A DNA stretch of 64,000 bases, from positions 62,001-126,000 of the forward strand of contig WGLV01000005.1 in assembly GCA_016125385.1 (NCBI GenBank). Reading direction: 5' to 3'. Numbering within the stretch: the stretch's first letter is position 1; every line of letters begins with the position of its first letter. The notes beneath the pieces are model-generated. The model did not search any database. It was given only the letters and a program-made list of their open reading frames with translations, and was not told the origin of the DNA. Shown in pieces: positions 2,645 through 46,271 of this stretch. This stretch comes from a bacterium (GTDB lineage Bacteria > Hinthialibacterota > Hinthialibacteria > Hinthialibacterales > Hinthialibacteraceae). The position numbers and the translations under genes are program-made.

Positions 2645-3244
2645 ATGAAAAAAGGGTTTACACTGATTGAATTGTTGATTGTTGTAGCCATTATCGGAAT
2701 TCTCGCCGCCATCGCCGTTCCAAACTTTCTGAACGCGCAGACGAGAGCGAGAGTCGCTCAGGTTGAAGCGAATTTCAAAGCGCTATCGACCGCGTTTGAA
2801 CTTTACCGAGTCGATCATAATTCATATCCGCTCCATGACCCGGCGCACGCGTACAATATTCTCAACAACTCGTTAACCACACCCGTCGGTTATATCGCCC
2901 GGGTTCCCATCGATATTTTCCAGCAAGCGACAATTTCCGTTACTAAAAGCATGGCGTCAAACGCGCCCATGGAACTGCACCCTGAGCCATTGTACGCTCC
3001 CGCTTACGGTAACGTCGCGATGGATAAAGAGAAATACACCAGCATTCCAAAACGTGGCAGCGGCGGCGATTTGACGATTCGCTTTAAAGATGATGCTGAG
3101 CAATACGCCAAGGCGCAGGGGATGTACCCCGAGGGACGATACGCGGTCAGCGTTGGCCCCGACCTCGAACATACCTACCCCGGCGTCTATAACGTGTCGA
3201 ATGGTTTGACCAGTCGGGGCGACATCATCCGCGTGTTCCCCTGA
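2645..3244 (+). CDS. Type IV pseudopilin (GspG/PilE-like)
   Basis: A 199-residue protein starting MKKGFTLIELLIVVAIIGIL, a textbook class III signal. Prepilin peptidase would cut after Gly4 and methylate Phe5, and Glu9 of the mature protein is present (FTLIE). The hydrophobic helix continues through PNFLNAQTRARVAQ. The globular part ends in VSVGPDLEH...YNVSNGLTSRGDIIRVFP, a C-terminal module shared with the second pseudopilin and with the 634-residue protein at 43.8-45.7 kb. No secretion or pilus ATPase, platform or secretin gene is in the window, so the assembly machine must lie elsewhere. The ATG is preceded by GGGGAGCAGGTC. A strong terminator follows 26 bp after the stop. Confidence 0.9.
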   Translation: MKKGFTLIELLIVVAIIGILAAIAVPNFLNAQTRARVAQVEANFKALSTAFELYRVDHNSYPLHDPAHAYNILNNSLTTPVGYIARVPIDIFQQATISVTKSMASNAPMELHPEPLYAPAYGNVAMDKEKYTSIPKRGSGGDLTIRFKDDAEQYAKAQGMYPEGRYAVSVGPDLEHTYPGVYNVSNGLTSRGDIIRVFP

Positions 3245-6315: not shown

Positions 6316-6475
6316 GGATGTTGAATGCAAAGTTTCTGGTTTATTTTGAGCCGAATTTCACAATGTTGTATTTCTTTGTAAAAAATGGTATTTTCTCCAT
6401 AATTTCAATTTACTTTCTGTTGGAATTTAGCTATTGTATTTAATGCTAATTTCGGGTGTAGGAAGAAGGAATGTT

Positions 6476-7045
6476 ATGAAACGAAAAAATGCATTTACCT
6501 TGATCGAATTGCTCATTGTCGTCGCCATTATCGGAATTCTCGCCGCCATCGCCGTTCCGAACTTTCTGAACGCACAGATGAAAGCCAAGATCAGCCGTGT
6601 TTACGCCGATCAGAAAGCGGTGGCCAGCGCGCTGGAGATGTACCGGCTCGACTGGAACACCTACGTCGAGGATCACGATTACCCCAGCGATCCGAGTCAG
6701 CGGGGATTGTTCCGGTTGACTCATCCCACCGCATACATGAGCTCGCTGCCGACCGATCCATTCATTTCGGCCGCCAAACAGAACGCGGAAAATAATCCGA
6801 ATTTTGAATTCGGATCGGGAAACAAAAACGGGGGGAACTGGCCCGCGCAGGCGTATATCATTATTTCGCCGGGGCCGGACCTGCAGGAACAGGTCGACGG
6901 AAATGATAATTTCCCCGTGAACGTGGTGATTTTTCAATACGATATCAGCAACGGGGTTGCGTCATCCGGCGATATCGTGCGTATGGGCGGAGATTATAAT
7001 TCCGGACGGATTCGAATGGATGGAAGGTGGTTCGTCGGAGGGTGA
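6476..7045 (+). CDS. Type IV pseudopilin (second copy)
   Basis: A 189-residue protein, MKRKNAFTLIELLIVVAIIG, with prepilin peptidase site after Asn5-Ala6 (A replaces the usual G before F; Ala is tolerated in some prepilins). Residue E5 of the mature chain is present. Over 54 nt (6524-6577) its coding sequence differs from the first pseudopilin at only two synonymous positions, while the rest has diverged. It ends SPGPDLQE...YDISNGVASSGDIVRMGG plus a Gly/Arg-rich tail, the same C-terminal module as the first. The start at 6476 was chosen because the signal peptide must be N-terminal and AGGAAGAAGGA lies just upstream; the in-frame ATG region at 6434 would add 14 residues before it. The upstream 160 bp is AT-rich. 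Confidence 0.88.
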   Translation: MKRKNAFTLIELLIVVAIIGILAAIAVPNFLNAQMKAKISRVYADQKAVASALEMYRLDWNTYVEDHDYPSDPSQRGLFRLTHPTAYMSSLPTDPFISAAKQNAENNPNFEFGSGNKNGGNWPAQAYIIISPGPDLQEQVDGNDNFPVNVVIFQYDISNGVASSGDIVRMGGDYNSGRIRMDGRWFVGG

Positions 7046-42218: not shown

Positions 42219-43793
42219 ATGAAACGATTTGTATTTTCCGTATTGGTTGGATTTCTGTTGACCACATTTCTTCCGCCCAGTCAGGGGCAATCGATCGATC
42301 TGGCGGCACCGCCCGCGAAGACGGTTGAAATACTGAGCGGATTCACGGTCGATAACACTCCGCTGATGGGGTATTACTTTAAAAACGTTGGAAACGCCGC
42401 GCAAAGCGGGATCGATGATTTTACCATCAGCCTGCCGTTTAATGATGATGATCTACTATTTAAAGACTCTATCTACCTGATACAGGGAGAATTTATTCTC
42501 GATAACGCCACTTTTGTGAAAATCGTGGCGGGCGTCAATGAACTGCCGTCACGTGTATTGAAGATTCATGGATACGACGATACGCGATTTGGATCCAGCG
42601 TGGAGCGCGCGGGGGATTTCGACCGCGATGGAATCAATGAAATCGCGGTACTGGCCCCGCTGGATGGTGAAGGCGGCAAGATTTATGTGATTCGGGTGGG
42701 TCTGTTGCCGCCGAATCCAGCACTGATCGATTTTGGTCTGCCCGGCGATTATGAAGAATATACCTTGCTGACGATCGAGGGCACGGTCGAAAAACCCGTC
42801 CGCGAACCTATGCAGCCCTGTGGCGATATCGATGGAGACGGATACTCGGATATTCTGATCGCCGCTCCTCCCTTCACATTCAGCAGCGACGGTTCCGAAA
42901 TTCTGGGATACGTGATTTACGGCGGCGAGGATCTTTCGCGGCAGACCATCAAGATGGGCGAACTCGATTCCGAACAGACGCTGACCGTGCTGATGCCTGA
43001 CGGTGACAATCCCAATATCGTATCTAAACGAATTTTCCGTAACGCGGGTGACGTAACCGGCGACGGCGTCAACGATCTGCTGATTTCTTTAGGCTACCGG
43101 AGCGTGGAACCGTACGCTTCTGAAATGCTGGTCGTTCCTGGCGGCGTCAGGCGAACCGGTATGATGAAAACCACGGACCTGGCGCAGAGTGGAGTCAAGA
43201 TTCGTCTTACGTTTTTTTCAGGAGAACAGGATTCCGAGTTGAGTTCTATCGCGACCGGCGACGCGGACGGCGACTCGATCAGCGATATCGCTCTCGGATA
43301 TGGAAGCGCCTCACTGATCGATTCAGCCACGCCGACCGGGGTCATCGCGCTTGTGCATGGCGGATTCACGGTTCCTTCCACGCTTGAGCTGGATGGAAGC
43401 GTGGATGAGCCGCTCACTATTCTGGGCCATTCGCAGCCCGGCGCCCGATTCGGGGCGTCCATGGCGGCTCGTAATGGTCGGTTGCTGGCAGGCGCTCCCG
43501 GCGTAACCGGAGCGTTGTTCACCCGGGAGCAAAGCGGAGCGGTGTATGAATATTATCCAGACCAGCTGAAGAAGGGATTGGTCAGCGATACGGCAGGTCC
43601 GCTTGCCCGGAGGGTGATCGTCGGGGCTTTTACCGATCAACAGATCGGTTCTTCGGTCGCTTATTTCGTCGGGCGCAACGGGATGCAGTATATTCTGACC
43701 GACGCGCTCGGAAACTCCGCCAAACCGGACCGTCTCGGGTATTTGATTCCAAACACCAGCAATACGGATATCGGCGACTGGAGCCTGTATTAA
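42219..43793 (+). CDS. Secreted FG-GAP repeat protein
   Basis: 524 residues with signal peptide MKRFVFSVLVGFLLTTFLPPSQG. Four or more FG-GAP/integrin-alpha-like blades carry Ca2+-binding D-x-D-x-DG loops: GDFDRDGINEIAVLAP, GDIDGDGYSDILIAAP, GDVTGDGVNDLLISL and GDADGDSISDIALGYG. Such propellers mediate adhesion or polysaccharide binding. It ends TDIGDWSLY. It is divergent from coaB across 93 bp and converges with the HAAS-like gene. Confidence 0.85.
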   Translation: MKRFVFSVLVGFLLTTFLPPSQGQSIDLAAPPAKTVEILSGFTVDNTPLMGYYFKNVGNAAQSGIDDFTISLPFNDDDLLFKDSIYLIQGEFILDNATFVKIVAGVNELPSRVLKIHGYDDTRFGSSVERAGDFDRDGINEIAVLAPLDGEGGKIYVIRVGLLPPNPALIDFGLPGDYEEYTLLTIEGTVEKPVREPMQPCGDIDGDGYSDILIAAPPFTFSSDGSEILGYVIYGGEDLSRQTIKMGELDSEQTLTVLMPDGDNPNIVSKRIFRNAGDVTGDGVNDLLISLGYRSVEPYASEMLVVPGGVRRTGMMKTTDLAQSGVKIRLTFFSGEQDSELSSIATGDADGDSISDIALGYGSASLIDSATPTGVIALVHGGFTVPSTLELDGSVDEPLTILGHSQPGARFGASMAARNGRLLAGAPGVTGALFTREQSGAVYEYYPDQLKKGLVSDTAGPLARRVIVGAFTDQQIGSSVAYFVGRNGMQYILTDALGNSAKPDRLGYLIPNTSNTDIGDWSLY

Positions 43794-43834: not shown

Positions 43835-45739
43835 CTACTTTTCCATCGGGAGCGACCAGATTACGTCTCCCCGGCTGACGAGCCCATTCGTGGCGTCATA
43901 GGAAGGTCCGCCGAATTTTTGATCGGGCCCCGCGCCGCGAAGTTCCACCTGTGTTGATTCGATACTCCACCGCATTCCTTGATCCTGAAACGGATCGTCG
44001 ATCCGGATGGATTTCAGCGAATCAAGCGCTTCGCCCGCATCGATAACATTTATCATTCCCCGTGCGAGAGCCTGGTTGGAGCGGACGACATTGATCCGCT
44101 TGAGCACGTTATCGAAATTCGGTTCGGCGATTTTCGTCAGCATTACGCTCAGGCTGATCGGGTAGAGATTTTTCAGCGCCTCATATCGCCGATACCCGCG
44201 CGATTCATGAGAATAAAACAGCTGCATATGGGAACACTGGACGCGGAATAGAGCGAAGTGGGAAAAGCCGATCGCGATCTGGTCCGACCGTTTGGGCATC
44301 ATGTTGAAGGGATTGAAATCTTTCGCATCGGAACCGGATCGATCCTGCTGTTTTAATTCTTCAGGCCACAGCGAACTGACTTTATCGAAATCAATGGATG
44401 CGAATTCGTTCAACGCATCTTTGTAACGAGACAGGTCCGCCCTGGATTCGATAAATGATTGAAGCATGGTGATAACGCGGCGGGCTTCGCCATCGAGAAT
44501 TAACCAGTCCATCATGGGTTCGGGCGCGGAATCGATGACGCCGGCGAACAGACGAGTCCAGCGGGCGTGCGCGGCGATAAGTTGCGGTCCGCGCTCCTGA
44601 CCGATGTAACACGACGGATCGAGTACGATGTTTTCTCTTTTGGGGTCTACTTCGCCCGGTGACGGAAAATACAGTACTTCGGCGATGTGATAAAACCGTG
44701 TCGTGTACTGCTGCGCGGCGAACAGTTCCTTCACGCGCCGGATGGTATCTTCGAGTGAAAAATCATCCGGCGTGGGGAAGCGGGTATAGACGCTCAGTGA
44801 GTTGAACAGCGCGCTTTTCCACATCCATTCATATTGACCGGAAGTCATATCTTCCTGACCGCGCGGAATCTGGAATGGTTCTTTTTTCGCGATCCCGTCC
44901 ATTATCGATTGAGCGAGTTCGATGTCTTCCGGCGTAACTTCAGGCTTCGGAAAGCGGATAATCGCATCGGATGGAATGTTGGTGAACAACTGGTATAGCC
45001 GATCGAAATCCCGCGCCGGCATGGCGGCAGTTTTGACTGGCTCGCCGCGTTTGTTTAAAAGCCAGAGGCGTTCGGCTTCGGCTGGGTCATAAGGAACTCC
45101 ACCCGGCATGGCGCCCATCCCTTCCGTCATGGGGGCCATGAATTCACGCCAATACGCGATCAGGATTTCGTCTTTTGTCGCGCCCGTGATTCCATCGGCG
45201 ACGGCCTGTTGACGGCGGGTTTCAAGAGTCTGATTCAGCGCTTCTTCTTTTTGATGGTAATAATCATCGAGAATGGTTTGCGCCTGCTGAAGCCGGTCAA
45301 GCAGGTTGCGTGATTCATCGCCGGGTTCGATCCACTTCAGCTTAATTGGCTTGGCCTGAAATACGGCGACGACTTGATCCGCCGCGTTTTGTTTGTCGAC
45401 CGCGTCCCGCCAGGCCTGAGGGATGGGATACAGCCACAGCACCCACAAATCAAAGGCTATCAGCAAGGCGAACGCGAACGCCGCGAGGACGGCGCACCAT
45501 TTCAGGACGCGCATCCACCACGGAAGCCCGCCTCGGATGAACATTTTTCGCAACTTGCGCGGAGGGCCGATTTTTTCGCGCAGGGAGGCGTCAGTCCACC
45601 GATCGATTTTGTTTTCTTCAGCGGCGTCTTCGATGTGATCGAGGATCTCACGGCGGGCTTCACGGCGGCGGTTCGGCCATATCCATAATCCGCGAGTGAC
45701 TTCATCGGCGAAGCGTTCTTCCGGTTGTTTGAATGTCAT
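43835..45739 (-). CDS. PadR-linked membrane protein with pseudopilin-like C-terminal motif
   Basis: 634 residues. The N-terminal 75 residues are acidic-helical (RREARREILDHIEDAAEE...) like the HAAS/DUF1700-type domain that accompanies PadR genes, followed by one membrane helix (VLKWCAVLAAFAFALLIAFDLWVLWL, residues about 82-108). The remaining 520 residues are extracytoplasmic, mostly helical, with no recognised catalytic motif. It ends GPDQKFGGPSYDATNGLVSRGDVIWSLP, matching the C-termini of the two pseudopilins at 3.2 and 7.0 kb. It starts 20 bp after padR with AGGAG upstream, so the two form an operon. Function unknown. Confidence 0.7.
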   Translation of the reverse strand: MTFKQPEERFADEVTRGLWIWPNRRREARREILDHIEDAAEENKIDRWTDASLREKIGPPRKLRKMFIRGGLPWWMRVLKWCAVLAAFAFALLIAFDLWVLWLYPIPQAWRDAVDKQNAADQVVAVFQAKPIKLKWIEPGDESRNLLDRLQQAQTILDDYYHQKEEALNQTLETRRQQAVADGITGATKDEILIAYWREFMAPMTEGMGAMPGGVPYDPAEAERLWLLNKRGEPVKTAAMPARDFDRLYQLFTNIPSDAIIRFPKPEVTPEDIELAQSIMDGIAKKEPFQIPRGQEDMTSGQYEWMWKSALFNSLSVYTRFPTPDDFSLEDTIRRVKELFAAQQYTTRFYHIAEVLYFPSPGEVDPKRENIVLDPSCYIGQERGPQLIAAHARWTRLFAGVIDSAPEPMMDWLILDGEARRVITMLQSFIESRADLSRYKDALNEFASIDFDKVSSLWPEELKQQDRSGSDAKDFNPFNMMPKRSDQIAIGFSHFALFRVQCSHMQLFYSHESRGYRRYEALKNLYPISLSVMLTKIAEPNFDNVLKRINVVRSNQALARGMINVIDAGEALDSLKSIRIDDPFQDQGMRWSIESTQVELRGAGPDQKFGGPSYDATNGLVSRGDVIWSLPMEK

Positions 45740-45759: not shown

Positions 45760-46107
45760 TTACGCGAACGCCGCCGCAGGCTCGGGACCAAGGACGCGCG
45801 TGATGGCCTGGCTGGTTTTGCGCCAGGTTTGTTTGCAGGATTCAAGATGTTTGAGCCCGGATTCGGTGATCTGGTAATAGCGTCGTTCTTTTCCGCTTTC
45901 AGCCGATTTACGGCTGCTTTCCACAAAGCCCTGCTCTTCGAGTTTGTAGAGCAACGGGTAGACGGTTCCCTGCCCGAACTGTAATGCGCCCGCGCTACGG
46001 TTTGCGATTTCTTTGACGATTTCGTATCCATACGCCTCTCCACCGCTGAGAATCTCCAGCAGCAGAATGGGTACGGTTCCTTTGGTAAGCGATTGTTTCA
46101 GGTCCAT
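45760..46107 (-). CDS. PadR family transcriptional regulator
   Basis: 115 residues with a PadR winged helix: VPILLLEILSGGEAYGYEIVKEI, LQFGQGTVYPLLYKLEEQGFVESS, RYYQITESGLKHLESC. PadR proteins are dimeric repressors, often controlling the membrane protein encoded next to them, here the HAAS-like gene. GGAGGATC precedes the ATG. A 23-nt inverted repeat lies just upstream. Confidence 0.92.
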   Translation of the reverse strand: MDLKQSLTKGTVPILLLEILSGGEAYGYEIVKEIANRSAGALQFGQGTVYPLLYKLEEQGFVESSRKSAESGKERRYYQITESGLKHLESCKQTWRKTSQAITRVLGPEPAAAFA

Positions 46108-46126: not shown

Positions 46127-46149
46127 AATGCTATTCTAACAATAGTATT
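46127..46149. promoter_or_regulatory. Candidate PadR operator
   Basis: Inverted repeat AATGCTATT-CTAAC-AATAGTATT with one mismatch, 20-42 bp upstream of the padR start. Its position suits autoregulation; no binding evidence. Confidence 0.45.
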
Positions 46150-46271
46150 GTGTCAAGTAATTTTTGATGAAAGATTCCGATCGCGATTGGGGTACGTTAT
46201 ATAAAGAGCGTGAAGCTTTTTTTGTGGGGCGGGCGTCTTATACAATAAACGCCCATACGGAAGAGTTAGCG

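Follow-up and report, generated by a model that had tools for sequence, protein, structure and literature searches.

GspG-type pseudopilins (TIGR01710, PF08334) carry a prepilin signal and an N-terminal fibre helix, followed by a head in which the start of alpha1-C, a DPF or DPW position and a GPD terminal loop with a DI-like end element succeed one another. The GspG loop binds calcium. In HAAS-PadR pairs (PF22564 / DUF1700), a PadR gene lies beside the gene for a membrane protein with a cytoplasmic HAAS N-terminus. The accessible text of PMC11237479 proposes that such pairs act in place of two-component systems and that their sensor domains are attached to HAAS; it places a GxP motif in the third HAAS helix, and names Toastrack, PspC, FtsX/MacB, FtsW/RodA and others among the fused domains. 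Autoregulating PadR repressors that control their own operon together with a membrane protein are described in Listeria (PMC6624303, accessible text).

Here we analysed a 64-kb stretch of DNA (the window; G000:C13:62001-126000) from a genome of 5.53 Mb in 77 contigs, in which a PadR gene precedes the gene of a 634-aa membrane protein with a pilin-like ending. The locus resembles HAAS-PadR pairs in that its PadR gene adjoins that of a membrane protein whose cytoplasmic N-terminus is HAAS-like and is followed by an extra domain of the kind presumed to act as a sensor; it differs in that its HAAS match is below the cut-off and that a pilin head is not among the fused domains named in the accessible text of PMC11237479. 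With GspG, the 634-aa protein has in common the alpha1-C start, the DPF/DPW position and the GPD terminal loop with its DI-like end element, but it lacks the prepilin signal and the N-terminal fibre helix, about 430 residues separate its membrane helix from its head, and its YDxSNGxxS stretch is absent from two operonic GspGs of the same genome (ending GPDG..GGDDDITNW and GPDG..GTDDDIGNW). The Listeria repressors are alike in controlling their own operon with a membrane protein, whereas the target there is an FtsW/RodA homologue and the accessible text of PMC6624303 mentions no pilin head. In the literature on HAAS with PadR, pilin-like domains on sensors, pseudopilin expansions and the pilins of this lineage, mostly papers available without subscription, we found no pilin head described on a PadR-linked membrane protein.

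Anatomy of the PadR operon

The 634-aa protein (43835..45739, minus strand) combines a HAAS-like N-terminus, a single membrane helix, a helical middle and a C-terminal pseudopilin-like head, an arrangement read from the ORF and its orthologs. The HAAS-like cytoplasmic region spans residues 10-63 (45551..45712, minus strand), with three predicted helices and GPP at residues 58-60. The membrane helix, recognized by hydropathy at residues 75-107 (45419..45517, minus strand), is the only one, in agreement with the first-pass annotation. It is followed by an extracytoplasmic middle (residues 108-530; 44150..45418, minus strand) predicted with low confidence to be helical, the last part of which, from residue 409, is common in profile-profile comparison to proteins of other class genomes that likewise combine a membrane helix, a helical stretch and a head. 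The head itself, delimited by profile searches and the ortholog alignment, occupies residues 531-634 (43838..44149, minus strand) and comprises the alpha1-C start IAEPNFDNVLKRINVVR (537-553), IDDPF (580-584) and GPD...YDATNGLVSRGDVIW (604-628). The terminal motif, from GPD to the end, lies at 43838..43930 (minus strand), and the protein ends in GPDQKFGGPSYDATNGLVSRGDVIWSLPMEK.

The HAAS-like character of the N-terminus, already suggested by the first-pass annotation, is borne out in position but weak in score. PF22564 scored 16.0 bits on the protein, against a curated cut-off of 27 (19.7 bits in the genome search), and this was the sole HAAS-like match in the G000 genome at E<=0.1. The orthologs in genomes G001 and G004 matched at the same position with 14.2 and 14.0 bits, both below 27, so that the curated score is reached in none of the three; an NCBIfam prefix model gave 0.0025 for the 634-aa protein, 0.87 for one ortholog and no match for the other. 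At the aligned position of the GxP motif the three proteins read GPP, GPP and GSA. Their N-terminal 75 residues contain many invariant positions, and the HAAS-like region is the best-modelled stretch of an otherwise poor full-length model. We infer that the first ~65 residues form a divergent cytoplasmic HAAS domain.

No prepilin signal was found in the protein with PF07963, as had been noted before; it lies outside the 104 matches of this model in G000. The first half of the pilin helix, comprising the signal and the fibre-forming part, is absent, and the membrane helix of the family is unlike the pilin helix.

The linkage to PadR noted in the first pass is confirmed: the gene that precedes the 634-aa gene by 20 bp (45760..46107, minus strand) encodes a 115-aa regulator matching PF03551 at 8.6e-23. 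A search of 97 other genomes gave orthologs of the 634-aa protein in two, G001 at 38% identity and G004 at 33%, and in all three genomes having the gene the PadR gene lies directly upstream, that is, as a standalone winged-helix gene beside a membrane protein gene, as in HAAS-PadR pairs. In a collection of genome contigs, a single-protein scan returned no relative, and an alignment scan returned only QZKN01000061.1 (SURF_12), which is the same sequence as G004. According to PMC10066038, the OLB16/SURF_12 lineage was earlier classed in error as Omnitrophica; since G004 belongs to the same family as the window, the latter probably falls in candidate phylum OLB16. The operon is present in 3 of the 14 class genomes, and is therefore dispensable where pseudopilins abound.

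Upstream of PadR, a promoter TTGACA-17-TAGCAT (46128..46156, minus strand; -35 at 46156-46151, -10 at 46133-46128) has its spacer filled and its -10 covered by a 21-bp imperfect dyad, ATACTATTGTTAGAATAGCAT (46128..46148), our proposed PadR operator. The comparison of the three genomes recovered the dyad upstream of PadR in each, as ATACTATTGTTAGAATAGCAT, ATACTATTCTTAGAATAGCAT and ATACTTTTTTTAGAATAGTAT, and by eye the other two genomes have the same promoter-dyad layout. At up to 3 mismatches it is the sole site in the 64-kb window (expected 0.00) and occurs once in each of the genomes G000, G001 and G004 (5.1–6.9 Mb), at the operon (control 0). Across the 14 class genomes the only extra site was one in G002 with 3 mismatches; the control for that genome likewise gave 1, and no PadR gene was found within ~3 kb of the site. 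A dyad so placed in the promoter would look like the layout expected of a self-repressing PadR. A PadR regulon extending over the pilins was considered and rejected, as no further dyad exists at up to 3 mismatches (the G002 site equalling its control); with no dyad at any pilin gene, there is no sign of pilin control by PadR.

The surroundings of the operon vary. An FG-GAP repeat protein with an apparent signal peptide is encoded at 42219-43793, convergent with the 634-aa gene; we rejected it as part of the unit, since no relative was found in the ortholog loci of G001 (5.0 kb) or G004 (9.6 kb). Beside the G004 ortholog (L051 6870-7794, minus strand), a CpaA-type prepilin peptidase and a Flp-type pilin were recognized by eye; they were not seen at the other two orthologs.

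The shared ending and the pseudopilin-like head

Two pseudopilins of the window carry the same terminal motif, as identified from their ORFs and family profiles. The first (2645..3244, plus strand) ends in GPDLEHTYPGVYNVSNGLTSRGDIIRVFP; in the second (6434..7045, plus strand) GPD...YDISNGVASSGDIVR is followed by 20 further residues, so that of the two proteins said earlier to end in the motif one does and the other runs on beyond it. Both are GspG-like and fall under the equivalog cut-off (TIGR01710 63 and 62 bits vs 88.85). The sequence searches confirm the terminal likeness first noticed among these three proteins and place it well beyond what chance would give: when the whole genome was searched with a profile built from 7 pilin ends of G000, the 634-aa protein, which had been left out of it, was detected at E=1.0e-7.

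That profile gave 96 matches at E<=10 in G000, 89 of them on 87 of the 104 PF07963 pilin loci. The other seven comprise the 634-aa protein, a pilin on contig C29 missed by PF07963, four short signal-less single-helix proteins (two on C26, one each on C2 and C22) and, on C17, a 49-aa frame, perhaps what is left of a pilin. Short single-helix proteins that resemble pilins deprived of their prepilin signal stand at loci L045, L046, L047 and L048, three of them clustered in L045. Across 26 otherwise divergent pilin ends (26 of 39 ends found; 1 of 40 pilins lay outside the motif pattern), GP, Y, NG, S and G are strongly invariant.

The first-pass annotation had interpreted the ending as a separable terminal tag or partner-binding module. 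This is not supported, because the module comes with alpha1-C and DPF in front of it. Similarity between the 634-aa family and pilins starts ~65 residues ahead of GPD: in the alignment of the three orthologs, IAxPNFxNxxxR stands ~65 residues before GPD and is followed by (I/D)DPF and then the terminal motif, and pilins have the same order of elements (IAVPNFLNAQTRARVAQ..., DPF, GPD). A body profile built from 40 G000 pilins from IAVPNF onwards, with the signal and membrane half removed and loci L049-L051 excluded, detected the window protein at 4.1e-6 and its orthologs at 4.3e-9 and 2e-8, and none of 3000 shuffles did better than 0.32. The matches in both orthologs consist of two colinear segments; in the window protein the C-terminal segment alone scored, the alpha1-C segment being called in the orthologs only. 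In the reverse direction, a profile of the three orthologs found pilin-sized frames in G000 and 11 other class genomes (part of the loci were read, the others classed by frame length), with matches at two separate regions, ~532-564 and ~600-638, corresponding to alpha1-C and the end. The sequence features of a GspG pseudopilin head, namely alpha1-C, DPF and the GPD loop, are thus all found in the family, with alpha1-C scored in the orthologs.

The last ~105 residues resemble a whole GspG-type pseudopilin head devoid of prepilin signal and fibre helix. As the module is accompanied by the rest of this head, common descent of the domain explains the shared end, which looks like the last loop of the pseudopilin head, in the form that the GspG terminal loop has taken in this lineage. 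The residues R, DPF, GP, Y, NG, S and GD are invariant over six long carriers; that the invariant residues of the head are kept in orthologs only 33-38% identical and across long families indicates that it is under selection.

Two AlphaFold models, from alignments of 4 and 2 rows, had pLDDT values of 54.8 and 45.4. In both of these low-confidence models the head consists of one helix and then three strands, which agrees with a pilin fold but says nothing more. Foldseek searches of the PDB with the models gave no match at E<=0.001, and given this and their low confidence we made no use of structure as support. A PDB profile search with six heads alone found no pilin; a PDB sequence search with an alignment of four rows matched pilins and GspG, which is not independent evidence since two of these rows are pilins with their membrane helix.

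Carriers of the ending in the class

All 14 class genomes contain the end module, at 33-134 matches per genome (E<=0.01), and most carriers are true pseudopilins. In G000, orphan pilins end GPD...YDxSNGxxSxGDI, whereas operonic GspGs keep a plain GPDG..DDDI.NW; the two GspGs whose genes lie next to T2SSF genes, on C53 and C2, terminate in GPDGRTGGDDDITNW and GPDGQEGTDDDIGNW. The alignment of DDDI.NW in canonical GspG with GDI.W in the module is ambiguous: the two may be equivalent, or the module may be an extension. Within 3 kb of a T2SSF match lay 8 of the 17 signal-bearing loci that lack the module, compared with 2 of the 87 counted as carrying it (Fisher p=3.6e-6), and one of these two (C53:24479) is the canonical GspG, whose GPD part gave just a weak match. 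The pseudopilins marked by the module are thus scattered orphans. The accessible text of PMC5131608 attributes calcium binding by the GspG loop to a citation; for the GspG-type loops of the present proteins, such binding could be supposed by analogy.

At G000:C71:56739-61650 (L104 6740-11651), apparent ECF sigma and anti-sigma genes, recognized by eye, are followed by a module-bearing pilin and a T2SSF gene, and further on by a multi-helix protein with a minor-pilin-like end part and more pilin-like genes. This cluster is a possible cognate machine for module pilins.

The module is not confined to GspG-like pseudopilins: as proposed in the first pass, a membrane protein that is not a pilin carries it, as do unrelated long proteins of G002 and G013. 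Among the best 150 module matches (weaker-scoring carriers may be missing), there are at least three further long single-helix proteins with head and module, one in G002 (429 aa) and two in G013 (477 and 700 aa); Pfam and NCBIfam returned no name for any of the three. The 700-aa protein (L073 1164-3350) has two copies of the module, one internal and one terminal. The expectation that many unrelated extracytoplasmic proteins would share the ending did not hold in G000, where it falls overwhelmingly on pilin loci and on one long protein.

With BLASTP, the C-terminal ~105-113 residues of the G001 ortholog alone aligned to the G002 protein (34% over 113 residues, 1.5e-8) and to the 700-aa protein (32% over 107, about 2e-7). 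Profile-profile comparison of the 634 family with the G002/G013 pair of 429 and 477 aa covered 209 columns (E=8.8e-9), so the family and this pair have part of the helical middle in common as well. Searching 98 genomes with the pair gave matches in 9, eight in the class and one outside (G088). These proteins, including those at the G012, G011 and G088 loci, resemble the 634 family in the order of their parts (single helix, helical middle, GspG head) and in the profile match, but no HAAS-like N-terminus was recognized in them, and the ending of several long relatives is a plain, GspG-like GPDG(R/K)DD that lacks the NG stretch.

Candidate roles of the PadR pair

In our preferred reading, the 634-aa protein and PadR would form a self-contained pair that regulates its own expression, with the former as the membrane arm. 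An outside change, such as a pseudopilin or a pseudopilin-bound partner meeting the head, would pass through the membrane helix to HAAS and then to PadR, which would leave its operator so that more membrane protein is made. For the proposed anatomy and autoregulation together with HAAS-PadR signalling we estimate a probability of about 0.6. The anatomy and the autoregulation are likely right; signalling from HAAS to PadR is an even bet. That the head senses pseudopilins is unlikely. The fuller version, in which free pseudopilins or their uptake machine bind the head, a pilin mimic, or face it as a competitor while HAAS reports to PadR, is likewise unlikely.

Another account would have PadR repress the operon until it responds directly to a small molecule or a stress signal, the membrane protein being an effector with an envelope job and an N-terminus that does not signal. 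The HAAS scores below the cut-off, the restriction of the dyad to the operon and the autoregulating PadR repressors of membrane proteins described in the accessible text of PMC6624303 would all fit, but PadR adjacency and a HAAS-like match at the same place in 3/3 orthologs, along with an N-terminal 75 residues rich in invariant positions, make it rather unlikely. The long protein could also have arisen by growth instead of fusion, from a pseudopilin in which the signal disappeared and a helical stretch was inserted between the membrane helix and the head, leaving the head as a roleless leftover. Pilins, short signal-less proteins and long carriers, all with an N-terminal membrane helix and a C-terminal head, do resemble such a series; we nonetheless judge this improbable, as the selection apparent on the head at 33-38% ortholog identity and across the long families is not that of a leftover, and the membrane helix of the 634 family is unlike that of pilins.

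The module may instead be a recognition or assembly interface for one common partner of pilins and non-pilins alike, be it a pseudopilus machine, a sorting factor or a surface receptor. Such a partner would account for the invariance of the 26 divergent pilin ends, the 33-134 copies per genome throughout the class and the presence of the module on several long proteins, and the module-bearing pilin adjoining a T2SSF gene at C71 might point to its machine. However, on long carriers the module is never alone but preceded by the rest of the head, a buried or metal-binding loop would give equal invariance, and with carriers that are mostly pilins descent suffices; we consider a common partner distinctly improbable. 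That the likeness is due to chance or low complexity, to which the shortness of the motif might lend itself, has next to no probability and is already refuted by the whole-genome detection at E=1.0e-7, conservation in the orthologs and the success of the reverse profile search.

Should the 634-aa protein indeed be a pilin-mimicking sensor, the state of secretion or of a pilus would be read by a non-polymerising decoy subunit, a one-operon switch would replace a two-component system, and pseudopilin heads would be portable domains on regulatory membrane proteins. With its two genes and single operator, the locus would offer a compact PadR switch in a lineage that is uncultured and whose genomes contain the pilin-end motif in up to ~130 copies; it may also serve in studying how so many orphan pseudopilins are sensed or controlled by one cell.
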